Assembly: GCF_900103875.1 (NCBI RefSeq)
Contig: NZ_LT629705.1
Coordinates: 2,365,001 to 2,429,000 of the forward strand
DNA from: Pseudomonas arsenicoxydans
Lineage (GTDB): Bacteria; Pseudomonadota; Gammaproteobacteria; Pseudomonadales; Pseudomonadaceae
Length of the DNA stretch: 64,000 bases
Direction of reading: 5' to 3'
The notes under the pieces are model-generated. The model made no database searches, was not told the DNA's origin, and saw only the letters and a list, made by a program, of their open reading frames with translations. Of the stretch, positions 31,607-46,853 are shown piece by piece. Both the position numbers and the translations under genes were made by a program. Position 1 is the stretch's first letter. Every line of letters begins with the position of its first letter.

Positions 31607-33013
31607 TCAGGCGGCGGGTTTTGTCTGGTGCACGGGTAACTCGACGCGGAATGTGCTCCCTGCGCCCACCTCGCTACGCACCGTGATCTCCCCTCGGTGT
31701 TTTTTGACGATGCCATAGGACAGGGACAAACCCAGCCCTGTCCCCTGGCCCACCGGTTTGGTGGTGAAGAAGGGGTCGAATATTTTTTGCAGGGTCTCCG
31801 GTGCGATACCCGAGCCGGTGTCTGCCACCTCGATCCAGACCTTTTGCCCCTCAACCCCGGTGCGCAACGTAATGGTGCCCCGTTGCGGTCCCACTGCCTG
31901 AGACGCGTTGACGATCAGGTTCATGATGACCTGATTGATTTGTGATGGCAGGCACTCGATCTCGGGCAACACCTGATATTCCTTCAGCACGTCGGCCTTG
32001 TACTTGAGTTCATTGGCGACGATGTTCAGGGTCGATTCGATGCCCTGTTGCAGATTGGCCCACTGCCATTCCTGGTTCGAGTCCACGCGGGAGAAGTCCT
32101 TCAGGTCCTTGACGATCTGCCCGACGCGGTTGATGCCGTCCTTGGATTCCTTGATCAGTAACGGAATGTCCTCGCGCAGAAACTCCAGCTCGACCCGTTC
32201 GCGTAACTGTCCAAGCCGTTCGAGCACCTCGTTTGAGGCAATCGCCTCTTCGGCATCGCGATAGGCATCGAGCATGGACTGCAGTTGCGTGAAGTAACCT
32301 TCGAGGCTGCCGAGGTTGGAGGAAATAAAGCCGATGGGGTTGTTGATTTCATGGGCGACGCCGGCTGCCAACTGGCCCAGGGAGGCGAGTTTTTCCGATT
32401 GCACCAATTGCGATTCAAGCTGTTTGCGCTCGTCGATTTCTCGCTGCAACGCCACGCTGGCCTGTTTGAATTCGGCCGTGCGCAGGTTAACCAGGTGCTC
32501 CAGGTGGCTCATCTGCACAAAGGCCCGTTCGGTCATTTCCCACTTGGTCAGCAGAGTGCTGGCCATCTGCTGGACTTCGATGTTGTCGAACGGTTTTTTC
32601 AGAATCAGCAAGCGGTCATGCGCGTGTAGACGGTCCAGCAGTTCATCCCAGGAATAGTCGGAATACGCAGTACACACCACCACTTGCAGGCGCGGGTCTT
32701 GCTGCCACAAATGTTCGATGGTCTGCGCGCCGTCCCAGCCCTCAGGCATGCGCATGTCGACGAAGGCGAGGGCGTACGGGCGGTTTTGCTGCAATGCCTG
32801 ATTAAGCTGTTCCAGGCCTTCCTGGCCGCCGTAAGCCGAGTCCAGTTCGAACAGGGCCCCCGCGGCTTTGACTTCGCTGCCAAACAGCGCGGCTTCCATT
32901 TCGTCCAGTTCGACTTGCTGCACCTCCACCGGCGTGAGGATCTTGCGAAAGTCCTCATGAATGGACGGCGTGTCGTCGATCAGAAGAATGCGTCGGTTCG
33001 AAGATCCGTTCAT
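31607..33013 (-). CDS. REC-histidine kinase hybrid
   Basis: A 468-residue soluble protein. REC domain at 1-130: acidic pair Asp13-Asp14 ([12 protein letters not shown]), phospho-acceptor Asp86 ([12 protein letters not shown]), then CTAYSDYSW and LKKPFD. About 30 extra residues sit between the acidic pair and the acceptor compared with an ordinary REC. A coiled-coil follows, then a HisKA domain with [14 protein letters not shown] and an ATPase domain ([32 protein letters not shown]), both intact. It should receive phosphate and also autophosphorylate. The start at 33013 overlaps the upstream kinase stop (ATGA), so it is the last gene of the signalling operon. Its REC is a close paralogue of those at 35822 and 37693. 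Confidence 0.88.
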
Positions 33014-34821
33014 GCCTTCTCCGTAACGGTTTTCAGCGGGATCTGCAGCGTGAACTGCGCCCCTTTGCCAGGCCCGTCGCTGTGCGCGCTGAGGTGGCCG
33101 TTCATCTCGATAGCCGCCAGGGCGCAACTGTGCAGGCCGAAGCCGTGACCTTCCTTGCGGGTGGTAAAACCGTGGGCAAAGATTCGGGTCATGTTTTCGG
33201 GCGCGATGCCTTCGCCATCATCTTTGACGCTGATTTGCAGGGTGGTGTCTTCAATGATTTTCACCCCCAGCGTCATTTTTCGCGGGCGATTGCTGAGGTC
33301 GGACATGGCGTATTTTGCATTGCTGATCAGGTTGATCAGGATCAGCAGCAAGCGGTGCTTGTCTCCCATGACCTGCGGCACATCGTTGTACTCCTTGATC
33401 ACCGTCACGTGGTGCCGGGTCAGGGCGCCGGAATTCATGCGCAGGGCATCTTCGAGCAACTCGCTGATGTGCAGCGGTTCCGTCAGATTGTTGGCTCCGG
33501 CGTAGGACTGCTGGGTGGCGACAATGTCCTTGATGTGATCGACGCTCTTGGTCAGTTGGGCGAGTTCGTCGGTCATGCTGTGTTGTTCGAGTGCAATGGC
33601 ATCGACCAGTTGGTTCAGGTAGCCGGGCAGTAACTTGCCTTTCTCGTCCTGGGTCAGGAAAGTGCCAAGGTCGCCAGAGCGCGCGTTGATCAGTTGCATG
33701 GCCTTGCCCAGCCCTTGAGCCTTGCTGCTGCGCAGTTTGCGCGAGACCAGGTCGGCGGAAATGTTCACGCTGTTGAGCACATTGCCGACGTTGTGCAACA
33801 CATTGGTGGCGATCTCGGCCATGCCGGCCAGGCGTGCGGTATCGAGCAGTTCGCTCTGGGTATCCTTGAGCTCGCGGGTGCGTTCTTCGACCCGTTGTTC
33901 GAGGTCGTCATTGGCAGTTTTCAGGGCTTTGTTGACGCGGTTGATCACCGTGAAACTGCGCATCAAGTGAATCGCCAGGTACACCAGCAACAACACCAGC
34001 AGCACGGAAAACACCAGCATGTAGAAGTGGTAGCGCTGATCGATCGCATCGGCCTGCTGCTGATCCTTGTTCAGCAGGTCGGTGATATCGTCCAGCCGTT
34101 CGGCCACGGGAATGGCTTCGATGTTTTCCAGCAAGCGGTTGACCACTGGCTGTTCACGCAGGATCAACGCGATGTGATTGCTCAGGATATCGATCGGACG
34201 GTGGAACTGCTCCGGCAGGCGCAACTTGTTCACGCTCAGTTTGTTCAGGCCCACCAGGATATCGGCGGCTTTGTCATCGGAGGTGACCTGGGCAAATTCC
34301 AGGCCGCTGAGCAGCAGGTCATAGGTGTCGGTAGCAATGTTTTGCAGCTGCAGTTTGTCGCTGTCCAGCAACCGGGCAAGGGGTTGCTGAATGTCATCTT
34401 CGGCGGTCGGCAGAAACGCCAGGGAGTTACGCAAGACGGCATTGTGCGATTTGAACTGTTCCACCAGCCGGGATTTTTCCTCGAAAGCGCTCAGGTAGGC
34501 ATCATGACTGGCGCGCCAGACGGGCGATTCGTTACGGCCGTGACTGGACTCCATCGTGTCGAACCGTTCCCACAACCGAGTCATCTCGGTCAGCGGCGTG
34601 ACCAGCGGATCGTAGTTGTGGTTGGTGTCTATCCGCGCCTTGAGGATTTCCGTTTCCCATTGTGCGTTCAGCTGTTTGATCCGGGAAATCAGATATCGGG
34701 ATTCGGTGTAGGTCGACGTCTGGTTCGAGCTGGACTTGAGGTACAGAAACAACAGCGTCGAGGCCAGTAACAGCGCCACGATGCCGAGGAGTGCCAGGCT
34801 GCTGCGATGGGACATTTTCAT
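33010..34821 (-). CDS. Membrane sensor histidine kinase with helical periplasmic domain
   Basis: A 603-residue sensor kinase. The first helix lies at about 9-28 (LALLGIVALLLASTLLFLYL). A long all-helical periplasmic domain follows, of the kind found in DAHL-type kinases, then a second helix near 265-285, a coiled-coil, and a phosphotransfer helix AEIATNVLHNVGNVLNSVN with the unusual His-Asn-Val-Gly-Asn box. The ATPase domain is complete (LINLISNAKYA, DDGEGIAPENM, GFGLHSCALAA). It probably phosphorylates the REC proteins encoded in the same operon. The start at 34821 overlaps the stop of the upstream di-haem peroxidase gene (ATGA), which suggests the peroxidase and the kinase are made together and may interact in the periplasm. 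Confidence 0.86.
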   Translation of the reverse strand: MKMSHRSSLALLGIVALLLASTLLFLYLKSSSNQTSTYTESRYLISRIKQLNAQWETEILKARIDTNHNYDPLVTPLTEMTRLWERFDTMESSHGRNESPVWRASHDAYLSAFEEKSRLVEQFKSHNAVLRNSLAFLPTAEDDIQQPLARLLDSDKLQLQNIATDTYDLLLSGLEFAQVTSDDKAADILVGLNKLSVNKLRLPEQFHRPIDILSNHIALILREQPVVNRLLENIEAIPVAERLDDITDLLNKDQQQADAIDQRYHFYMLVFSVLLVLLLVYLAIHLMRSFTVINRVNKALKTANDDLEQRVEERTRELKDTQSELLDTARLAGMAEIATNVLHNVGNVLNSVNISADLVSRKLRSSKAQGLGKAMQLINARSGDLGTFLTQDEKGKLLPGYLNQLVDAIALEQHSMTDELAQLTKSVDHIKDIVATQQSYAGANNLTEPLHISELLEDALRMNSGALTRHHVTVIKEYNDVPQVMGDKHRLLLILINLISNAKYAMSDLSNRPRKMTLGVKIIEDTTLQISVKDDGEGIAPENMTRIFAHGFTTRKEGHGFGLHSCALAAIEMNGHLSAHSDGPGKGAQFTLQIPLKTVTEKA

Positions 34822-35777
34822 AAGGGTTTGCCTTCCCATTCACCGGTCAAGGTCTTGAGAAACTGGATGATCAGGCCCTTGTCGTCTGCGGAGGGGATGC
34901 GTCCCAGCTGAAAGGTGAACATCACGTCCACGGCGTCCTCGAGGGTTTTGGCCGAGCCGTCGTGAAAGTACGGCGCGGTCACGGCGACGTTACGCAGGCT
35001 CGGGACCTTGAACACGTTGCGGTCCTCTTCGTCCTTGGTCACCAGATAGCGCCCCAGGTCGGTTTCGGTCGGGTTGCCGCGCGCCTTGAAGTAATCGCCC
35101 ATCACGCCGAATTTCTGGAACATGTTGCCGCCGATGTTGACGCCTTGATGGCAGGTTATGCAGCCGTAATCCTTGAAGCGTTGGTAGCCGTATTTTTCTT
35201 CGGTGGTGAGAATGTCGGTATTGCCTTTCAGGTACTGGTCGAAACGCGAATTGGCGCTGAGCAGTGTGCGCTCGTAGGTGGCCAGGGCATTTTGCACATT
35301 GAGCTGGGTTACGCCGTCCGGGTAGGCGTTGACGAATGCGCGGTGATACGCCGGATCGGCCGACAAGGTCTGCACCACGTGTTCCCAGTTGCTCCCCATT
35401 TCACCAGGGCTTTGCACCACGGTGTGGACCTGGGTTTCCAGGGTGTCGGCGCGTCCGTTCCAGAACTGTCGGAAGTTCAGGCTGGCGTTGAATACGCTGG
35501 GGGTGTTGATTGTCACTGGCTGGCCGTTGAAGCCAATGGAAAATGCCTTGTCATCGGCGCCACCGTTTTCCAGGTGATGACAGCTGGCGCAGGACAGGCT
35601 GTTGTTGACCGACAATCGGGATTCGTTGAACAACTGGCGACCCAGTTCGACACGCTGCGGGTTTTGTTCCGGAGCGGCCGGCAGCGGTTTGAGCGGTTCA
35701 TTCAGCGGCTCGCCGACCGCGCCCGCACTGAGCCCGAGCAAAGGAACAAGCAACAGGCAGTAGAAGAATGGCGACAT
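34818..35777 (-). CDS. Di-haem cytochrome c peroxidase-family protein
   Basis: A 319-residue exported protein with a signal peptide (MSPFFYCLLLVPLLGLSAGAVG) and two c-type haem sites, CASCHH and CITCHQ. It has the layout of bacterial cytochrome c peroxidase/MauG proteins (ELGRQLFNESRLS; FKVPSLRNVAVTAPYFHDGS; VDVMFTFQLGR). Such proteins reduce hydrogen peroxide or oxidise a partner in the periplasm. Being sandwiched between c-di-GMP and kinase genes with a four-base overlap is unusual and suggests a sensing or signal-generating role. The start at 35777 is chosen for its AAGGA site and signal peptide; 35816 would add 13 residues. Confidence 0.86.
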   Translation of the reverse strand: MSPFFYCLLLVPLLGLSAGAVGEPLNEPLKPLPAAPEQNPQRVELGRQLFNESRLSVNNSLSCASCHHLENGGADDKAFSIGFNGQPVTINTPSVFNASLNFRQFWNGRADTLETQVHTVVQSPGEMGSNWEHVVQTLSADPAYHRAFVNAYPDGVTQLNVQNALATYERTLLSANSRFDQYLKGNTDILTTEEKYGYQRFKDYGCITCHQGVNIGGNMFQKFGVMGDYFKARGNPTETDLGRYLVTKDEEDRNVFKVPSLRNVAVTAPYFHDGSAKTLEDAVDVMFTFQLGRIPSADDKGLIIQFLKTLTGEWEGKPL

Positions 35778-35821
35778 CTTATGATTCCTTGGCGGATGGC
35801 CGAAGCGTCGCTTCATATCGG

Positions 35822-37696
35822 TCAGGTGGTTGCGAACGGGAGAGACTTCACCGATGTCATGTACTGCACAAAGGCCTCTGGTTCGACGGCTTTGCTGAAG
35901 TAATAACCCTGGCCTTCCTCGCACTGATGGGCCTTTAGAAAATCCAGTTGTTCGAGGGTTTCCACTCCTTCGGCGATGACGGTCAGCTTGAGGCTCTTGC
36001 CCAGGCTGATGATGGCGCTGACCAATGCCGCATCGCTGCTGTCGCGGGTCAGGCCGCGAATGAACGACTGGTCGATTTTCAGCACGTTGATGGGGAACCG
36101 TCGCAGGTAACTAAGGCTGGAATAACCGGTGCCGAAGTCGTCGATGGCCAGCCGCACACCCAACGCTTTTAGGCGATTCAGAGCGGAGACGGTGGCGTCG
36201 ACGTTCTGCATCAACACCCCTTCGGTGATTTCCAGTTCCAGCAATGATGGGTCCAGGCCGGTTTGCTCAAGGACCTGTTCAATGCCTTCGACGAAACCGC
36301 GCTGGCGAAAATCGATGGCCGATACGTTCACCGACATGCACAGCTTGGGCAGTCCCGCGGCCTGCCAGGCGCAGGCTTGCCGACAGGCCTGGGCCAGTAC
36401 CCATTTGCTCAACGGCACGATCAGGCCGCTGTCTTCGGCGACACCAATGAAGTCGGACGGATAAACCAGGCCATGCCCGGGTTTGAGCCAGCGGATCAAG
36501 GCCTCCGCACCCACCACCTGACCCGTGCCCAGGTCGAGCTTGGGCTGGTAATGCAGGACAAATTCGTCGCGCTCCAGTGCCAGGCGAATCCCTGTTTCGA
36601 TACTTTGCTGATCCCGGGCACGCTGGTTCATTTCGTCGAGGAAGAAGCTGAAGTCGTTCGGGCCGATTTCCTTGACGTTGCGCATCGCGGTTTCGGCTTT
36701 CTTGATCAGCGCGATGGCATCGAAGCCGTCATCGGGATAAATGCTGATGCCCAGGCTGGCGGTCACGCTCAGGTCATGGCCGGCGATGTGCTGGGGTGCG
36801 CGAATGGCGCTCAGGATTTTTTCGGCGATGCCTTTGGTTTGTTGCGGGTGGCGGATATCGGCCAGGATCACCACGAACTCATCAGAGCCGTAGCGAAACA
36901 CCGAATCGGATTCGCGCACCGTGGACACCAGGTTTTGCCCGACCCGTTTGAGCATCTCGTCTCCAGCTGGGTGCCCCAGTGCATTGTTGATGCGCTTGAA
37001 TCGGTCAAGGCCCAGAAACATCACCGCCAGTTGCTTGTCATGGCGGCGGGACAATGCCAGGGACTGGTTCAGCCGATCACCGAGCAGCGTGCTGTTGGGC
37101 AGCTCGGTCAATACGTCATATTGCAGCAGGTGAGACACCTTGAGCAGTTCGTGGACGCGTGCCTCGATGGTTTGCTCCAGGCTTTGCACTTTCGTCTCGG
37201 CGTCCTGGGTCATCTGCCATTTCCAGGTCAGGGCGCTGGCCATCTGGCGGATTTCCACACTGTCGAAGGGCTTTTTCAACACCAGCAATTGGTCGCCGTA
37301 CTCGAGCCGCTCGGCCATTTCTTCCCAGCTGTAATCCGAAAAAGCCGTGCACAGGGCGATTTGCAGATGCGGGTCGACCTTCCAGAGTTTTTCGACGGTT
37401 TCCAGGCCGTCCCAACCCGGCGGCATGCGCATGTCGGTGAAGGCCATCGCGTAGGGGCGACCTTCGGCCTGGGCGCGCTTGACCAGTTCGAGCGCTTCCT
37501 GGCCCTGGTAGGCCGAGTCGAGCTGGAACGTCAGCCGGTCAGGCTTGGGCGTGCCAAACAGCGTTTCTTCAGTGCCGGCCAGGGACAGTTCGTCTTTGGT
37601 GTCAGGGCCGAGGATCTTGCGAAAGTCCTGATGGATCGAGGGCGTGTCATCAATGATCAGGATGCGCCGGTTGGTCTGCACGGAGGACGTCTTCAT
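35822..37696 (-). CDS. REC-GGDEF-EAL protein with degenerate GGDEF (likely phosphodiesterase)
   Basis: A 624-residue cytoplasmic response regulator. The REC domain (about 1-140) has [13 protein letters not shown], the acceptor Asp in FTDMRMPPGWDG and LKKPFD, with the same insertion as its paralogues. A GGDEF-type domain follows at about 185-345, but its signature reads RYGSDEF (270-274), with Ser for the second Gly. The EAL domain (about 360-615) is intact: EAL at 398-400, DDFGTGYSS and EGVETLEQ. The expected activity is c-di-GMP hydrolysis, with the GGDEF part regulatory or weakly active. It overlaps the upstream paralogue by four bases and is followed by the di-haem peroxidase gene. Confidence 0.88.
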   Translation of the reverse strand: MKTSSVQTNRRILIIDDTPSIHQDFRKILGPDTKDELSLAGTEETLFGTPKPDRLTFQLDSAYQGQEALELVKRAQAEGRPYAMAFTDMRMPPGWDGLETVEKLWKVDPHLQIALCTAFSDYSWEEMAERLEYGDQLLVLKKPFDSVEIRQMASALTWKWQMTQDAETKVQSLEQTIEARVHELLKVSHLLQYDVLTELPNSTLLGDRLNQSLALSRRHDKQLAVMFLGLDRFKRINNALGHPAGDEMLKRVGQNLVSTVRESDSVFRYGSDEFVVILADIRHPQQTKGIAEKILSAIRAPQHIAGHDLSVTASLGISIYPDDGFDAIALIKKAETAMRNVKEIGPNDFSFFLDEMNQRARDQQSIETGIRLALERDEFVLHYQPKLDLGTGQVVGAEALIRWLKPGHGLVYPSDFIGVAEDSGLIVPLSKWVLAQACRQACAWQAAGLPKLCMSVNVSAIDFRQRGFVEGIEQVLEQTGLDPSLLELEITEGVLMQNVDATVSALNRLKALGVRLAIDDFGTGYSSLSYLRRFPINVLKIDQSFIRGLTRDSSDAALVSAIISLGKSLKLTVIAEGVETLEQLDFLKAHQCEEGQGYYFSKAVEPEAFVQYMTSVKSLPFATT

Positions 37697-39990
37697 CCCT
37701 TGTCCTCCGTAGAGTGCGGGTTGTCCCGGATCGGTCCGGTTTGAAAGCTGGCGGGCATGATACTGCCGGCTTTGAGCAAGTGAGCGGCCTGCTGGCTGCT
37801 GACCGCTTTGCTGAAGAAGTAACCCTGTGCGTTCATTGGCGAGCCTGTGGCCATCAGCGAACTACGCTGTTCCTGGGTTTCGACACCTTCGGCGATGATT
37901 CCGATCCCTACCTCACGTGCGAAATTGATGATGGCACGCAATGTGTTGGCGCAAGCCGGGTCCCGGGCCGCGGTATCGATGAACGCCTGGGCGAGTTTCA
38001 GGTGATTGACCTGGTAAGTCTTGAGGTAATCGAAGGAGGAATATTCGGTGCCGAAGTCATCGATGGCGATCTTCACCCCCAACTCGCGCAGGCGCGGCAG
38101 CACATCGTTGTGGGTCCACTTGGTCTGGGCCAGGGTCGCTTCGGTGACATCGAAACGCAGGTCCCAGGGGCACAGTTCATAGCGCGCGGTGGTGCGCAGC
38201 ACGTCATAGATCAGTTCGGGACCACTCTTGAGCTGGGCCAGTGACAGCTTGATGGCAATGACCGGCGGCGCCATGCCTTCATCGCGCCACTGGCGCATTT
38301 GTTGGCAGGCGCGATCCAGTACCCAGTGACCGAGGGCGATAATGGCACCGGTTTTTTCCGCCGCCGGCAAGAACGTCGGTCCCTCCAGCAAGCCCCGTTC
38401 GGGGTGATTCCAGATGACCTGGGCTTCCATGCCGAGGATCTTGCCGCTGCTCAGTTCCACCTCGGGCCAGTAATTGAGCTCGAGCTCTTCATGCTTGATG
38501 GCGTCTTTCAAGTCACTGGCGATGGCCATGCGCTCGACCACCTCCTGATTGATCTCCTCGGAATAGAAGTGGTACTGGTTGCGGCCCTTTTCCTTGGAGC
38601 GATAGAGCGCCATGTCAGCCTGGCCTAGCAGACCGTCGGCACTGGTGATGAGCGGCGAGTAGCTGCTGATGCCGATGCTCACTGAAACGCGCACGTCATT
38701 GCTGGCGAGGGAGTAAGGCAACACCAGGGCATCGCGGACCTTGGCGGCCAGCGCGGCGGAATGGGTCGGGTCGCTGACGTCAAGTTGCAGGATGGCGAAC
38801 TCGTCGCCGCCGAGGCGCGCGACCACATCGTTTTCCCGCACGCAGGCCTTGATGCGCCGGGACACCTCTTGCAGCAACAGGTCGCCCACCGGATGACCGA
38901 GGGTATCGTTGATCCGTTTGAAGTGATCCAGGTCCAGGTAGAACATCGCGAACGGTGTGGCCCCCCGGCGGGCGGCGGCGAACGCCTGGTGCAGGCGCTC
39001 GATCAGGGTGGCCCGATTGGCCAGTCCGGTGAGTCCGTCGGTGCGGGCCAGCAGGGCGATTTTCTCTTCGGCGACTTTGCGCTCGGTAACGTCGATGATG
39101 ATGCCTTCGACTTCCAGCAAGCGTCCTTCATCGTCGCGCACCGGGATATAGCGGTTCTCCACCCAGCGCCAGGCGCCGTCGCTGGTGCGCATGCGGAACT
39201 CGATGGAGGCTCCCGCCGCGTGCCGGTCCAGCACCCGGGCCATCGCCGTGTCGACTTTCGGTTGATCGTCGGGATGAATCAGCTCCCGGGCCCAGTTGGC
39301 CGAGGCGACCAGGTTCGCCGCGACGTGACCGTACTTGGTGATGTTGTGGGAGATGTACATCAGCGGAAACGAGGGTTCGCCGCGCAGGCGATACAAAATG
39401 GTCGGGCTGTTCTGCACGATGATGTTGGCATCGGACAGCTCCCGGGTGCGTTCCTCGACCGCCTGCTCAAGCAGCGACATCTTCAGCGCCGCATCTTCGG
39501 TCATCTGCCATTTGGCGGTCATGGCACTGGCTATCTGTCGGATTTCAATGGCATCGAAGGGTTTTTTCAGAATCAGCAACCGATCGCCCAGCTCCAGGCG
39601 TTCATCGATGTCTTCCCAGGAATAGTCGGAATAGGCGGTGCACAGCGCCACTTGCAGCTTGGGATCAACCTGCCACAGCCGTTCGATGGTTTGCAGACCG
39701 TCCCAGCCCGGCGGCATGCGCATGTCGATGAACGCCAGCGCGTAGGGCAGGTCGTTGGCCAGTGCTTGTTCGACCTTGCTCAGGGCTTCAAGGCCCTGAA
39801 ACGCCGAATCGAGCACGAAGCTTTGCAGAACGGCCGTCGCTTGCGTTCCGAACAGGGCTTTTTCGGCGTTGGTCAGGTCTTCGTCATCGATCGATGGCGG
39901 ACTGAGGATCTTGATGAAGTCCGCATGGATCGAAGCGGTGTCGTCGACGATGAGAATCCGACGATTGGTTCGTGCCAGCAACGTACTCAT
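37693..39990 (-). CDS. REC-PAS-GGDEF-EAL protein with degenerate EAL (likely diguanylate cyclase)
   Basis: A 765-residue protein, first gene of the five-gene operon. The REC domain (1-145) has LIVDDTASIHADF, FIDMRMPPGWDG and LKKPFD. A PAS/PAC domain follows (about 190-310; FRMRTSDGAWRWVENRYIPVRD), then a GGDEF domain with intact RLGGDEFAIL (394-398). The EAL-type domain is degenerate: EAL is EAQ (522-524), and the usual Asn of the VNxS motif is replaced (IKLSLAQL), although DDFGTEYSS and EGVETQEQ remain. The expected activity is therefore c-di-GMP synthesis only. PAS may sense oxygen, redox state or a ligand. It is divergent from the REC/HD-GYP-like gene at 40255. Confidence 0.88.
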   Translation of the reverse strand: MSTLLARTNRRILIVDDTASIHADFIKILSPPSIDDEDLTNAEKALFGTQATAVLQSFVLDSAFQGLEALSKVEQALANDLPYALAFIDMRMPPGWDGLQTIERLWQVDPKLQVALCTAYSDYSWEDIDERLELGDRLLILKKPFDAIEIRQIASAMTAKWQMTEDAALKMSLLEQAVEERTRELSDANIIVQNSPTILYRLRGEPSFPLMYISHNITKYGHVAANLVASANWARELIHPDDQPKVDTAMARVLDRHAAGASIEFRMRTSDGAWRWVENRYIPVRDDEGRLLEVEGIIIDVTERKVAEEKIALLARTDGLTGLANRATLIERLHQAFAAARRGATPFAMFYLDLDHFKRINDTLGHPVGDLLLQEVSRRIKACVRENDVVARLGGDEFAILQLDVSDPTHSAALAAKVRDALVLPYSLASNDVRVSVSIGISSYSPLITSADGLLGQADMALYRSKEKGRNQYHFYSEEINQEVVERMAIASDLKDAIKHEELELNYWPEVELSSGKILGMEAQVIWNHPERGLLEGPTFLPAAEKTGAIIALGHWVLDRACQQMRQWRDEGMAPPVIAIKLSLAQLKSGPELIYDVLRTTARYELCPWDLRFDVTEATLAQTKWTHNDVLPRLRELGVKIAIDDFGTEYSSFDYLKTYQVNHLKLAQAFIDTAARDPACANTLRAIINFAREVGIGIIAEGVETQEQRSSLMATGSPMNAQGYFFSKAVSSQQAAHLLKAGSIMPASFQTGPIRDNPHSTEDKG

Positions 39991-40254
39991 AAGCGTACGG
40001 CCGGAACGGATGCAATGCGGTGTAATGTGCTCATAGGGGCATCCTTTCCCTGATCACGTGGCCATGCGTTGCAGATAATGGATCCGAGTGATTGCAGCAT
40101 AGTCCCCTGTGCAGCACTTCGCCTACCCGACTCAAACGAATCATTTCCAGAAGAAGTGTGCAAAATCATCTAGCCTGTAGCTCAGGCTTGGCCAAAGGGG
40201 ATTGTTTGGCTGCGACCTGACGCACGATCTACCCGTTTCGCTTGAGGTTATGCC

Positions 40255-41613
40255 ATGGAAGAGCAACTCCCCCCCACGATCACCGATAGACCCAGGGTGT
40301 TACTGGTTGATGATGAGGAATCGATCCTCAACAGTTTGCGTCGGCTATTACGCGGCCAGCCCTACGAGGTGTTATTGGCCACCAGCGGTGCCCAGGCGCT
40401 GGAAATCATGGCGCGTGAGCCCGTCGACCTGGTAATGAGCGATGCGCGCATGCCCAACATGGACGGCGCGACGCTGCTGGCGCACATTCACCAGCACTAT
40501 CCCGATACGCTGCGCATTTTGCTGACCGGGTACGTCGACCTGACAACGATCGTGAAAGCGATCAACGAGGGGCAGATTGACCGTTACATCAGCAAACCCT
40601 GGCACGATGAGGAATTGCTGCTGACGTTGCGACAGTCGCTCGCCTACCAGCGCTCCGAGCGCGAACGGCTGCGTCTGGAGCGCGAGACGTGGCATCGCAA
40701 CGAAGAATTGAAGGTCCTGAACGCGACCCTGGAAAAACACGTCGCGGCCCGCACTTCTGAACTGCAACAGACCGCCGACATGCTCGACCTGGCGTACGAA
40801 GAGCTCAAACACAGCTATGTCACCGGCACCGAGGTGTTCTCGTTGCTGGCCAACCTGCGCTTGCCGCCTGCCAAGCAGACGAACCGGCAGATCATTGAGC
40901 TGGTGCGGGTTTACTGCAAACTCCATGGCGTGGACGAGGCCAGCACCCGCGACCTGGCCATGGCCGCAGCGCTCTACAACATCGGCAAGCTGAGTTGGAC
41001 CGATGGCATGATGAATACGCCTTCGGACCTGCTGCACCACACCGATCGCGAGCGCTATCGCGGTTATCCGAAGCAAAGCGAATCGTTGCTGATGACCCTC
41101 GATCCGATGAAGGACGCCGCGCGCCTGATCCTTCACCATCAGGAGCGCTGGGATGGCAGCGGGTTCCCCGACCGGCTCAAGGGCGAGGCGATTCCGCTTG
41201 GATCGCGCTGGCTGAAACTGGCGGTGGATTTCATCGAGTTGCAGCGCGGGCTGATCCTTGAGCGCCAGATGAACAGCGATGAAGCACTGGTCTATATCCG
41301 CCAGTACGCCGGGCGACTGTATGACCCTGATCTGGTCGAGGATTTCATTCAGGTCTGCGCCGCGTACCTGAGCGATGTCTCGCTGGCCGATCCGACGGTC
41401 AAAGTGCTGACCACCCGGGACCTGGCCGCCGGCATGCTGCTGGCACGCAACCTCAATGCCGATAACGGCATGTTGCTGCTCAACGCGGGCAAGGTGCTGA
41501 GTGGGCCTCTGATAGAGAAGCTGATCGCGTTCGAGGCGATGGAAGGGGCGAAATACAGCATTTTCGTGAAAGTGCCGGAGGAAGTTGAGGGCCTGGAGCT
41601 GTTAGCGAATTAG
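40255..41613 (+). CDS. REC protein with degenerate HD-GYP domain
   Basis: A 452-residue response regulator. The REC domain is ordinary (LLVDDEESILNSL, acceptor Asp in VMSDARMPNMDG, SKPWHDEEL). A coiled-coil follows at about 140-190, then an HD-GYP-like domain. The metal-binding HD pair is replaced by Tyr241-Asn242 (AAALYNIGKLSW), while GYP (270-272, RGYPKQS) and HHQERWDGSGFP remain. The loss suggests the domain no longer cleaves c-di-GMP and may act as a binding or protein-interaction module. The gene is divergent from the REC-GGDEF-EAL operon with a 264-base gap and is likely part of the same signalling system. Confidence 0.85.
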   Translation: MEEQLPPTITDRPRVLLVDDEESILNSLRRLLRGQPYEVLLATSGAQALEIMAREPVDLVMSDARMPNMDGATLLAHIHQHYPDTLRILLTGYVDLTTIVKAINEGQIDRYISKPWHDEELLLTLRQSLAYQRSERERLRLERETWHRNEELKVLNATLEKHVAARTSELQQTADMLDLAYEELKHSYVTGTEVFSLLANLRLPPAKQTNRQIIELVRVYCKLHGVDEASTRDLAMAAALYNIGKLSWTDGMMNTPSDLLHHTDRERYRGYPKQSESLLMTLDPMKDAARLILHHQERWDGSGFPDRLKGEAIPLGSRWLKLAVDFIELQRGLILERQMNSDEALVYIRQYAGRLYDPDLVEDFIQVCAAYLSDVSLADPTVKVLTTRDLAAGMLLARNLNADNGMLLLNAGKVLSGPLIEKLIAFEAMEGAKYSIFVKVPEEVEGLELLAN

Positions 41614-43503: not shown

Positions 43504-44421
43504 CTAGCGAACGGCGCTGACCCCGTCCAGGGTCGAGAACGATGTGTCCTTGGCCGTCAGCAAGAAATCGCGCATGTACGGCGCATCCAGCATGTCCGCG
43601 CGAATCGCCGCATACAGCGTCGCAAACAATCCCTTCTCGCCCAGCCGCTTGGCCTTCACATAGCCGCGTGAGCTGTATTCATGCAGCGCCCAATGCGGCA
43701 TCCCGCACACGCCGCGCCCGCTGGCCACCAATTGCATCATCATTACCGTCAGTTCCGAGGTGCGGACCTGCGCCGGTTCGATGTCGGCGGGTTCCAGGAA
43801 GCGGGTGAAGATGTCCAGCCGATCACGTTCCACCGGGTAGGTGATCAGCGTTTCCGTGAGCAAGTCTTCCGGAACGATGTAGGCCTTGCTCGCCAAACGG
43901 TGCTGGTTGGCCACCGCGAGCATCGCTTCATAAGTGAACAACGGCACATAGGTGATCCCGGCCAGTTCCAGCGGATCGGAGGTCACCACCAGGTCCAGAT
44001 CGCCCCGGGCCAGGGCCGGCAGCGGGGCGAAGGAGAAGCCCGAGGCCAGGTCCAGCTCGACTTCCGGCCAGGCATCGCGGAACTGGTCGATGGTTGGCAT
44101 CAGCCATTGGAAACAACTGTGGCACTCGATTGCCATGTGCAAGCGGCCCGCCGTACCGCCCGCCAGGCGTGCGATATCACGTTCGGCGCCACGCAGCAGC
44201 GGCAAGGTCGCGTCAGCCAATTGCAGCAGGCGCAAACCGGCACTGGTGAAACGCACCGGTTTGGTCTTGCGCACGAACAACGGCATGCCCATGCGCTCTT
44301 CCAGTTCCTTGAACTGGTGGGACAGGGCTGACTGCGTCAGGTGCAGCCGGTCGGCGGCGTCGACCAGGCTGTCGGCTTCGCGCAAGGCGTGCAGGGTCTT
44401 CAGGTGACGGATTTCAAGCAC
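43504..44421 (-). CDS. metR: LysR-family activator of methionine biosynthesis MetR
   Basis: A 305-residue LysR-type regulator. It has an N-terminal winged helix (LKTLHALREADSLVDAADRLHLTQSALSHQFKELEERMGMPLFVRKTKPVRFT) and a C-terminal effector domain that in MetR binds homocysteine. Divergence from metE is the classic arrangement, and MetR activates metE. The start chosen is GTG at 44421 (VLEIRHLKTL), because this matches the family N-terminus and length; ATG starts further up would run into the operator region. A MetR-type palindrome lies 44 bases upstream. Confidence 0.93.
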   Translation of the reverse strand: MLEIRHLKTLHALREADSLVDAADRLHLTQSALSHQFKELEERMGMPLFVRKTKPVRFTSAGLRLLQLADATLPLLRGAERDIARLAGGTAGRLHMAIECHSCFQWLMPTIDQFRDAWPEVELDLASGFSFAPLPALARGDLDLVVTSDPLELAGITYVPLFTYEAMLAVANQHRLASKAYIVPEDLLTETLITYPVERDRLDIFTRFLEPADIEPAQVRTSELTVMMMQLVASGRGVCGMPHWALHEYSSRGYVKAKRLGEKGLFATLYAAIRADMLDAPYMRDFLLTAKDTSFSTLDGVSAVR

Positions 44422-44464
44422 CGGATGGCTCCATGAGGAAAACTTGTGATCAACACGAAAAGGT

Positions 44465-44477
44465 TGAGTTTGTCTCA
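44465..44477. promoter_or_regulatory. Probable MetR operator
   Basis: TGAG-N5-CTCA (TGAGTTTGTCTCA), a 13-base dyad matching the MetR consensus form TGAA-N5-TTCA with one symmetric change. It lies between the divergent metR and metE starts, 63 bases before metE. Confidence 0.65.
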
Positions 44478-44540
44478 TGTTGGGTTGACTGTCGACAATA
44501 GCGCCATGTTTTACAGCCTCTTTATTGGAAGACACTCATC

Positions 44541-46853
44541 ATGGCTCTGGCGCACACACTTGGTTTCCCCCGCATCGGCGCGGACCGCGAATTGAAAAAA
44601 GCCCTCGAATCCTACTGGAAGGGCGATCTGGATCTGGACGCGCTGAACAACGTTGGCCGCCAATTGCGCGCCAGGCACTGGCAATTGCAGAAAGACGCCG
44701 GCATCGACCTGCTGCCCGTTGGCGACTTCGCCTGGTACGACCAGGTCCTGACCCATTCCCTGACCTTCGGTGTGATTCCCGAGCGCTTCGACAGCGCCAA
44801 GGATGCCCAAGGCCTGCCGACCCTCGACACTCTATTCGCCATGGCCCGTGGCGCCACGGCGACCTGCTGCGGCGGCGAACACGGCACAGCGCAATACGCC
44901 CAGGAGCTGACCAAGTGGTTCGACACCAACTACCACTACCTGGTCCCGGAATTCAGCGCTGACCAACAATTCAAGCTGAGCTGGGAACAGCTGTTCGACG
45001 AAGTCGACGAAGCCAAGGCGCTGGGCCATGAGGTCAAACCGGTCATCATCGGCCCGCTGACCTACCTGTGGCTGGGCAAAGCCAAAGGCAACGACTTCGA
45101 CAAGCTCGAATTGCTCGAACGCCTGCTGCCGGTCTACAACGAAATCCTCGGTCGCCTCGCCGCGCAAGGCGTGGAATGGGTGCAGATCGACGAACCGATC
45201 CTGACCCTCGACCTGCCGCAAGCCTGGAAAAACGCCTTCGAACGCGCCTATCACATCCTCCAGTACTCGCCGCTGAAGAAACTCGTGGCGACCTACTTCA
45301 GTGGTCTGGAAGACAACCTCGGCCTGGCCGTGGGCCTGCCGGTGCAAGGCCTGCACATCGACGCCGTACGTGCGCCGGATCAACTCGGCCAAGTGCTGGA
45401 TCGCCTGCCGACCTACAAGATTCTTTCGGTCGGGCTGGTCAACGGCCGCAACGTCTGGCGCTGCGAGCTGGAGCAAGCCCTCGCACAATTGGCGCCGGCC
45501 CAGGAACGTTTTGGCGAGAACCTGTGGGTCAGCAGTTCCTGCTCGCTGCTGCACAGCCCGGTTGATCTGGAGCGCGAAGACAAGCTCGACCCTGAACTGA
45601 AATCCTGGCTGGCCTTCGCCGTGCAAAAGTGCGGAGAAATTGCCGTGCTGCGCGATGCCCTCAACGACCCGCAATCGCCCAAGGTGCAAGCCGAACTCGC
45701 GCAAAGCCGTGCCATTGCGACCAGCCGCGCCGAGTCGCCGCGCATCCACAAAGCCGAAGTCCAGGCGCGCATCAAGGCCATTGGCGCAGCGGACAGCCAG
45801 CGCCAGTCGCCGTTTGCCAAACGCATCGCGCAGCAACAGGCGCGCTTGCAACTGCCGGCATTTCCGACCACCACCATCGGCTCGTTCCCGCAAACCGGTT
45901 CGATTCGCCTGGCGCGTCAGGCTTTCAAGCAAGGCAAGCTGTCGGCCAACGATTACACCGACGCCATGCACAGCGAAATCCGCCACGCCGTGCAAATCCA
46001 GGAACGCCTGGGCCTGGACGTGCTGGTGCACGGTGAAGCCGAACGCAATGACATGGTCGAATACTTCGCCGAGCAACTGGACGGCTACCTGTTCACCCGT
46101 TTCGGCTGGGTCCAGAGCTACGGTTCGCGCTGCGTCAAACCGGCGATCATCTACGGCGACTTGAGCCGCCCGAACGCCATGACCGTCGACTGGATCACCT
46201 ACGCGCAAAGCCTCACCGACAAGGTCATGAAAGGCATGCTCACCGGTCCTGTGACCATGCTGATGTGGTCGTTCCCGCGCGAAGACGTCTCGCGCAAAAT
46301 CCAGGCGCAGCAGCTGGCGTTGGCCCTGCGTGACGAAGTGGTCGACCTGGAAGCCGCCGGCATCAAGATCGTGCAGATCGACGAAGCCGCATTCCGCGAA
46401 GGCTTGCCGCTGCGCAGGGCGCAATGGCAGGAATACCTCGATTGGGCCGTGGAAGCATTCCGCCTGAGCGCCTCCGGTGTGCGCGATGAAACCCAGATCC
46501 ACACGCACATGTGCTACAGCGAGTTCAACGACGTGATCGAGTCCATCGCGGCGATGGACGCCGACGTGATCACCATCGAAACCTCGCGCTCGGACATGGA
46601 ATTGCTGGAAGCCTTCGAAGCCTTCGACTACCCGAATGACATCGGGCCAGGGGTTTATGACATTCACTCGCCACGGGTGCCGGACACCGCCGAGATGGTC
46701 AAGTTGATGAGCAAAGCGGTGAAGCGGATTCCGGCTGAGCGGTTGTGGGTGAATCCGGATTGCGGGTTGAAGACCCGGGCGTGGCCGGAGACTGAAGCGG
46801 CGTTGGTGAACATGGTGGCGGCTGCGCGGCGGTTGCGGAGTCAGTTGGCCTGA
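44541..46853 (+). CDS. metE: Cobalamin-independent methionine synthase
   Basis: A 770-residue enzyme that transfers a methyl group from 5-methyltetrahydropteroyl-triglutamate to homocysteine. It has the normal full length. The N-terminal half opens with [26 protein letters not shown], and the C-terminal barrel opens with [12 protein letters not shown]. The zinc ligands are in place: His656 and Cys658 (HTHMCYSEF) and Cys741 (NPDCGLKTR), with the same 83-residue spacing between the cysteines as in the E. coli enzyme. It is expected to be activated by the divergent MetR. Confidence 0.97.

Follow-up and report, generated by a model that had tools for sequence, protein, structure and literature searches.

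Organization of the locus

The stretch analyzed here, hereafter the window, comprises 64,000 nucleotides of Pseudomonas arsenicoxydans (positions 2,365,001 to 2,429,000 of contig NZ_LT629705.1), whose 6.5 Mb genome is contained in one contig. Within the window, positions 31607-41613 hold a unit of six genes, five arranged head-to-tail on the minus strand and one, encoding a REC/YN-GYP protein, divergent from them. Two of these genes are the subject of this report: that of an exported di-haem c protein, referred to as HEM, and that of a membrane receptor kinase whose periplasmic region is a DAHL domain. A di-haem peroxidase-like gene embedded in a signalling unit had been predicted for this place, and all six genes are indeed found there, with the following features:

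31607..33013, minus strand: soluble kinase, REC-HisKA-HATPase by domain scan, present in 77 of the 80 best loci of the pattern scan described below
33010..34839, minus strand: DAHL sensor histidine kinase, consisting of a transmembrane (TM) segment, the DAHL domain (residues 41-270), a second TM segment and a kinase part with H349 (PF19443, 175.7 bits; HATPase_c)
33970..34758, minus strand: periplasmic DAHL region with its flanks (residues 28-290), the stretch used for alignment and modelling
34818..35816, minus strand: HEM, exported di-haem c protein of the CCP_MauG family, 332 residues (PF03150, 193.5 bits; two CXXCH motifs)
35822..37696, minus strand: REC-GGDEF-EAL protein, predicted phosphodiesterase (EAL intact, GGDEF degenerate to GSDEF)
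37693..39990, minus strand: REC-PAS-GGDEF-EAL protein, predicted diguanylate cyclase (GGDEF intact, EAL mostly degenerate, EAQ here)
40255..41613, plus strand: REC/YN-GYP response regulator of the NosR family, with a degenerate HD-GYP domain (NF053512, 584 bits)

With the preferred starts, the gene junctions are 4-bp overlaps, including that between HEM and the DAHL kinase, which likely starts at 34821 and then comprises 603 residues (its TM segments were placed by eye). The exception is a 5-bp gap before the HEM gene, or 44 bp if HEM starts at the later ATG at 35777 (319 residues) instead of at 35816 (332 residues). A promoter scan of the unit region returned no match, with 2.8 expected by chance, and is therefore uninformative. 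The best named matches of HEM are found in pseudomonads, e.g. P. mandelii and P. frederiksbergensis, and a protein search with the DAHL region gave 934 matches, the best 120 of which are all close Pseudomonas kinases or near-copies.

The HEM-DAHL pair in Pseudomonas

In a sample of 298 Pseudomonas genomes, 118 give a kinase match (E <= 1e-60) and 115 contain a HEM orthologue (identity >= 60%). The two genes abut in 114 of these 115, the exception being a fragmented assembly in which they lie on separate contigs. The original prediction had named the absence of the haem gene from most related operons as the observation that would speak against it; the opposite is seen, in the genus as well as class-wide (55 of 60 DAHL loci, see below). 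Three genus genomes possess a kinase match without a listed HEM, namely G149 and G180 (both weak matches, their places not being listed) and G222. In the latter, which is 78% complete, the cyclase gene runs straight into a C-terminal kinase remnant (locus L041), HEM and the DAHL part being apparently both missing.

The rest of the unit is less constant. A HEM-anchored pattern scan of named contigs, descriptive since its patterns derive from the paired family itself, returned 552 loci, the best 80 of which are all from Pseudomonas. These contain the HEM-DAHL pair in 80 cases, the REC-kinase in 77, the YN-GYP regulator in 75, the phosphodiesterase-type REC-GGDEF-EAL protein in 75 and the REC-PAS-GGDEF-EAL protein in 47, a few loci being cut by contig ends. 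The three-REC set, whose co-occurrence with HEM and the kinase the original prediction had suggested checking, is therefore accessory, and the whole six-gene operon was rejected as the conserved unit, its accessory genes varying between loci: the conserved core is the HEM-DAHL pair. Among the variants, loci L021-L023 have no YN-GYP match in the stretch and carry an extra kinase-core gene resembling the C-terminal part of the DAHL kinase. The reduced units L024-L027 comprise HEM and one DAHL kinase with a catalytic part nearer to that of the REC-kinase, the YN-GYP gene being divergent; in L025-L027, HEM has lost its catalytic Gln in three out of three cases and its Glu in two. Open-frame lengths, inspected by eye without a systematic search, revealed no HEM-receptor gene fusion.

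Second DAHL kinases occur away from HEM in 12 analyzed stretches (L029-L040). Eleven of them are 54-59% identical to the window kinase and that of L040 matches partially. As none of the 12 stretches contains a HEM match, they were rejected as further haem pairs; in the nine listed gene by gene, the neighbours are varied, some being ftsH-like by eye. All 32 genus genomes listed with second DAHL copies also carry HEM, so an orphan DAHL kinase may share the HEM of its genome.

The HEM-DAHL pair outside Pseudomonas

In a class sample of 369 genomes, the HEM search reports hits in 78, the window's own included, at E <= 1e-62. A DAHL match directly follows HEM in all 32 best of the 103 places listed, and in each of the 26 non-Pseudomonas loci fetched with wide flanks the next gene lies on the same strand and scores above the DAHL cut-off. 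The outputs attached to these 26 DAHL partners are not the same: nine are kinases or hybrid kinases, 14 carry GGDEF (most also EAL) in the same protein as DAHL, one is of guanylate-cyclase type, one has a PAS domain only and one has nothing else. This last is found at L076:8904-9863, where HEM is followed by a DAHL membrane protein of 319 residues devoid of any recognised output domain. At L083:5869-8004, the receptor behind HEM has a DAHL-GAF-guanylate-cyclase-type organization, a possible haem-to-cyclic-nucleotide pathway.

Searching in the reverse direction, DAHL is found at 60 places in 48 of the 369 genomes, and HEM lies directly upstream in 55 of them (48 listed and seven on inspection), which led us to reject chance adjacency or operon drift. 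The abutting of the two genes in 114 of 115 cases in the genus, together with its recurrence far outside the genus, likewise argues that their adjacency is not due to chance. For comparison, 14 loci without a DAHL neighbour (L098-L111) served as unpaired controls, the absence of DAHL resting on the lack of a match on the same contig for L098-L106, and on gene layout and the kinase search for L107-L111. These are lower-ranked HEM matches, in which rank and pairing are partly confounded (identities of 41-48%, overlapping the 44-55% of the paired proteins), a fault from which the DAHL-anchored test is free.

In a phylum sample of 299 genomes, HEM lies directly upstream in 27 out of 27 non-Pseudomonas loci with DNA, of 63 places listed. 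Several pairs reside on plasmid records, in Rhizobium etli 8C-3, Rhizobium sp. WYJ-E13 and WL3, Agrobacterium fabrum 1D132, Indioceanicola profundi, Vitreoscilla filiformis and also the cyanobacterium Gloeocapsa sp. PCC 7428; further named pairs belong to R. sullae, A. vitis F2/5 and Pseudoalteromonas piscicida. Records with annotation name the haem gene 'cytochrome c peroxidase' and label its receptor 'ATP-binding protein', 'DAHL domain-containing protein' or 'VirA-like sensor kinase'; Pfam DAHL is present in all 10 receptors scanned from the named pairs. In Persicobacter (L239), a HEM-like gene without the signature defined below stands beside a receptor-sized gene, and no pairing is claimed for Bacteroidota.

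HEM could be an ordinary periplasmic peroxidase that is co-transcribed with the kinase and serves detoxification under the control of the receptor, as its target or within its regulon, without being its sensor. The pairing tracks DAHL and not the output, be it kinase, GGDEF-EAL, cyclase or even none at all; the gene order is fixed and the genes overlap. That HEM stays with DAHL while the outputs are swapped therefore fits a co-receptor of DAHL better than a regulated detoxification gene.

The haem protein

HEM scores far above the CCP_MauG cut-off of 25.6 bits and starts with a hydrophobic signal-like segment, as judged by eye. It was aligned with its relatives in a set of 63 paired (26 from Pseudomonas and 37 others) and 14 unpaired proteins. 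In the paired proteins, the CXXCH residues are kept in 62 or 63 out of 63 depending on the position; all 63 have the bridging Trp, and 61 the Met that ligates the C-terminal haem. The window HEM keeps Trp106, Gln116, Glu126 and Met286. In contrast, none of the 63 paired proteins has a distal His at its N-terminal, peroxidatic haem (one being a gap there), as against 9 of the 14 unpaired ones that do (p = 1.2e-8, Fisher test ignoring relatedness); the window HEM has Phe83 at this position. Fifteen of the 63 paired proteins, and none of the 14 unpaired ones, have lost the catalytic Gln or Glu, the Glu alone giving p = 0.06 in the same test, which again ignores relatedness.

In classical peroxidases, the distal His dissociates only after reduction of the partner haem, and loops close to both haems move substantially (PMC10094543; papers are cited by PubMed Central (PMC) number and, unless their main text is named, for excerpts). 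YhjA has no distal residue and its P-haem site is available when oxidised (PMC10301912). The HEM model has a predicted local distance difference test score (pLDDT) of 87.3, falling below 50 for residues 82-85 at the distal position. Its best fits are YhjA (9qdt, TM-score 0.86, 2.2 A) and the Nitrosomonas peroxidase (0.86, 2.4 A); it also resembles most mixed-valence or reduced peroxidase forms (0.81-0.85, 2.0-5.1 A) and fits oxidised forms such as 4aal, 1eb7 and 2c1u less well (0.68-0.72, 6.4-7.5 A). With no distal His and such a fit to YhjA and the mixed-valence or reduced forms, HEM looks like an open, redox-capable haem protein. YhjA, its closest fold match, similarly has a P haem without distal residue in the excerpt of PMC10301912, and differs from HEM in being a tri-haem enzyme, HEM being a di-haem protein with a signature motif and a linked receptor.

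These features bear again on the ordinary peroxidase. The match to two active enzymes, the full set of haem and catalytic residues in the window protein, and the joint retention of Gln and Glu in 48 of the 63 paired proteins all agree with it; the loss of one or the other in the remaining 15, against none of the controls, does not, and together with the tracking of DAHL makes this explanation improbable. Another enzymatic role would be that of a MauG- or MbnH-like protein oxidising a residue of DAHL or of a periplasmic substrate, the modification being the signal. Members of the superfamily such as MauG do oxidise protein Trp (PMC6405878), and HEM scores as a sub-threshold relative of both. 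However, its scores stay far under the NCBIfam cut-offs (TIGR04039, 192.8 versus 362.85; TIGR03791, 136.3 versus 443.85), the C-terminal haem ligand is Met (Met286 in the window) and not the Tyr of MauG or BthA, and the DAHL alignment has no conserved Trp. Membership of MauG/MbnH was rejected on the scores and the haem ligand, and this enzymatic role appears very improbable.

The positions that distinguish paired from unpaired proteins cluster after the second CXXCH (Y204, Q211, N214, N218 and F230, with S260 further on) and define a pair signature, CHQGxxxGGN. Both Q211 and N218 are present in 26 of 26 Pseudomonas and 33 of 37 other paired proteins, and in none of the 14 unpaired ones. In loci not used for its derivation, the signature is found in 34 of 34 paired proteins and in none of the six judged unpaired by gene order. 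Five further loci were of unsettled status: the three with the signature were each then shown to lie upstream of a DAHL receptor, and the two without it have no receptor-sized open reading frame (ORF) next to them. This test is not strictly blind, as gene sizes or annotations beside L238, L249 and L250 were visible beforehand. Since the signature stretch adjoins a loop of the C-terminal domain that moves upon reduction according to the peroxidase literature, it is a candidate contact face to DAHL.

A quick maximum-likelihood tree of 92 HEM proteins separates the 14 unpaired from the 78 paired ones by a single branch (SH-like approximate likelihood-ratio test support of 86). On this tree, the output type changes at least seven times over the 43 rows with a known output, or nine times if L076 and L089 are scored as having none.

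The DAHL domain and its relatives

The DAHL domain of the window kinase, a TM receptor, is assigned well above the cut-off of 38 bits. The original prediction had described a membrane kinase with a helical periplasmic domain; the model is indeed all-helical (pLDDT 92.6), with the correction that the domain already bears a name in Pfam. The closest structure is the TorS sensor, which the model resembles over the sensor domain. TorS docks the periplasmic protein TorT, a binding protein for trimethylamine N-oxide, and the TorS-TorT system is not known to involve haem or cyclic di-GMP (c-di-GMP). The likeness lies in the receptor fold and in the proposed use of a periplasmic partner, and the difference in the partner, HEM being a di-haem protein.

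A second relative is VirA of Agrobacterium: the DAHL domain of a Rhizobium kinase paired with HEM shares homology with its periplasmic region (36%). The window kinase itself gives a sub-threshold match to the VirA-like family NF010411 (142 bits against a cut-off of 647), the best stretch covering residues 20-341. VirA takes its input from the periplasmic protein ChvE (PMC9149312). Both receptors would be alike in their periplasmic domain and in receiving input via a periplasmic protein, whereas the VirA partner is a sugar-binding protein and the adjacent partner of DAHL is the di-haem peroxidase-family HEM, with varying outputs. In the six-gene locus, the neighbour of the window kinase is HEM and not a sugar-binding protein.

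Regarding previous descriptions, no ligand of DAHL was found in searches of the open-licence PMC literature, which returned the domain name only in a table of PMC8998981. Among the papers listed by such searches, judged by titles and abstract starts, we recognised none that describes a protein of the cytochrome c peroxidase (CCP) family acting with a DAHL or VirA-like receptor as its co-receptor, and the terms 'kinase', 'sensor' and 'genome neighborhood' do not occur in the main text of the superfamily network paper PMC6405878. Excerpts of PMC12889525 describe sCache_heme domains, which resemble HEM in that an extracytoplasmic c-haem is tied to kinases, GGDEF/EAL proteins and cyclases, with nitric oxide (NO) involved; they differ in carrying the haem motif within the Cache domain, HEM being a separate two-haem protein acting with an all-helical receptor.

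Output proteins

The residue counts in this section refer to orthologues of the unit proteins in the analyzed loci, one species being possibly counted twice. In the REC-PAS-GGDEF-EAL protein, GGDEF is intact in 57 of 57 orthologues and the third residue of EAL is Leu in only 11 of 57. Conversely, the REC-GGDEF-EAL protein keeps the EAL residues in 88 of 88 and has the second Gly of GGDEF replaced by Ser or Ala in 88 of 88. The two therefore read as one predicted cyclase and one predicted phosphodiesterase, each under a REC domain with an invariant Asp. The H-box His of the DAHL kinase (H349) is invariant in 112 of 112 orthologues. The REC-kinase keeps both its REC Asp and its H-box His (96 of 96) and is a possible phosphorelay partner of the DAHL kinase. 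The receivers of the REC-kinase and of both GGDEF-EAL proteins belong, as judged by eye, to one unusual type, with similar NRRIL starts and a stretch separating the first motif from the rest, which suggests that a single kinase serves all three. Further along the window, at 43504-46853, translations inspected by eye reveal an ordinary arrangement of a LysR-type gene divergent from a metE-like gene.

The divergent REC/HD-GYP-like gene of the original prediction is present, but its HD-GYP domain is degenerate: the second residue of HD is Asn in 95 of 95 orthologues and GYP is replaced by GFP, and the regulator is presumably non-catalytic. It scores above the curated NosR-family cut-off of 400 bits, which brings in a further explanation, namely that HEM senses a haem ligand, NO or O2, as a periplasmic counterpart of H-NOX or NosP, peroxide being irrelevant. 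In Burkholderia, the NO-binding haem protein NosP is an auxiliary that controls the kinase NosK, which phosphorylates NosR, a degenerate HD-GYP protein (PMC12570481), and the gene layout is similar to HnoX-HnoK-HnoB-HnoD (PMC8846402). The H-NOX/HnoK/HnoB/HnoD, NosP/NahK/NarR and NosP/NosK/NosR systems all have a haem protein that modulates a kinase acting on c-di-GMP regulators (PMC8846402, PMC12570481), and the missing distal His of the paired HEM proteins also agrees with a ligand sensor. The sensors of those systems are, however, HNOB or FIST proteins, and NosK is given no predicted TM region in the excerpt of PMC12570481, whereas HEM is of c-type, predicted to be exported and paired with a TM receptor; the Pfam scan of the six unit proteins reports no FIST or HNOB domain. 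Moreover, the second haem site, the bridging Trp and the Met ligand are kept, all needless for a simple ligand sensor, and YN-GYP matches lie near only some of the mapped non-Pseudomonas pairs. HEM as a sensor of NO or O2 is thus unlikely, if less so than either enzymatic role.

HEM as a proposed periplasmic co-receptor

We consider that HEM is probably (roughly 0.75) a periplasmic sensory co-receptor of the DAHL kinase, feeding into c-di-GMP in Pseudomonas. The path from haem protein through the periplasmic domain of the kinase to c-di-GMP, as originally predicted, is strongly supported by the comparative evidence, including the 14 of 26 non-Pseudomonas pairs in which DAHL and a GGDEF output share one protein, the conserved unit being the HEM-DAHL pair instead of the operon composition. 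Starting from what is directly observed (the gene anatomy, the broad conservation of the pair despite exchanged outputs, the residue patterns, the VirA homology and the modelled TorS-like fold), the mechanism may be pictured as follows. HEM would be exported, loaded with two c-type haems and docked on the all-helical DAHL domain. The open site of its N-terminal haem would meet an oxidant, and electron carriers of the periplasm would supply the C-terminal His/Met haem. Depending on its redox or ligand state, HEM would then shift the loop that follows the second CXXCH, the site of the CHQGxxxGGN residues, and DAHL would read the shifted loop as TorS reads TorT or VirA reads ChvE. Lastly, the kinase would control how far four receivers are phosphorylated, namely those of the soluble kinase, of the cyclase (37693-39990), of the phosphodiesterase (35822-37696) and of the YN-GYP regulator, resulting in a c-di-GMP shift of either sign.

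Several observations weigh against a co-receptor role. Four of the 60 DAHL loci have no upstream HEM (L112, L119, L120 and L121) and one further locus lies at a contig start; L120 and L121 seem to represent the same system in two relatives, and the four belong to genomes with another HEM-DAHL pair (G583, G353, G490) or another HEM (G530, where it adjoins a short ORF with a hydrophobic start at L071). Two of the 55 positives are imperfect, the haem gene being in two frames at L114 and a contig-edge fragment at L115, and second DAHL kinases without adjacent HEM exist in Pseudomonas, as described above. Neither residue mark is perfect: five of the 14 unpaired controls also have no distal His, and the full signature is missing in four of the 37 non-Pseudomonas paired proteins. 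After TorS, the DAHL model is closest to McpS, which binds small molecules directly, so that a small ligand might likewise bind to DAHL without a partner protein. Finally, the gene pairing may reflect co-regulation rather than contact.

Regarding the signal, the conservation of two haems, of the Trp wire and of the Met ligand argues for redox chemistry and hence for peroxide or the state of electron carriers. We give peroxide or another oxidant about even odds. The 'peroxide or redox' signal of the original prediction is not supported as worded. The distal His is absent, and Gln or Glu is lost in some proteins; on these grounds, and because a NosR-type regulator is present, NO or another haem ligand is a possible signal, at clearly lower odds than peroxide. 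What likelihood is left falls to the redox state or poise of the electron carriers.

Implications

More broadly, and tentatively, at somewhat less than even odds, DAHL may define a large unrecognised family of two-piece receptors in Proteobacteria and Cyanobacteria, with a di-haem peroxidase-derived oxidant co-receptor as the ancestral input and interchangeable kinase, c-di-GMP and cyclic-nucleotide outputs, the plant-tumour sensor VirA being derived by a swap of the haem protein for ChvE. If HEM is the partner of DAHL, kinases, diguanylate cyclases and cyclases with this domain would, as an entire class, gain an assigned input. A peroxidase fold would have been recruited as the antenna of a membrane receptor, oxidant chemistry in the periplasm would be tied to the lifestyle switching governed by c-di-GMP, and an evolutionary origin would be at hand for VirA's periplasmic arm. 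The CHQGxxxGGN signature would, in turn, allow the proteins annotated as 'cytochrome c peroxidase' to be re-sorted into sensors and enzymes.

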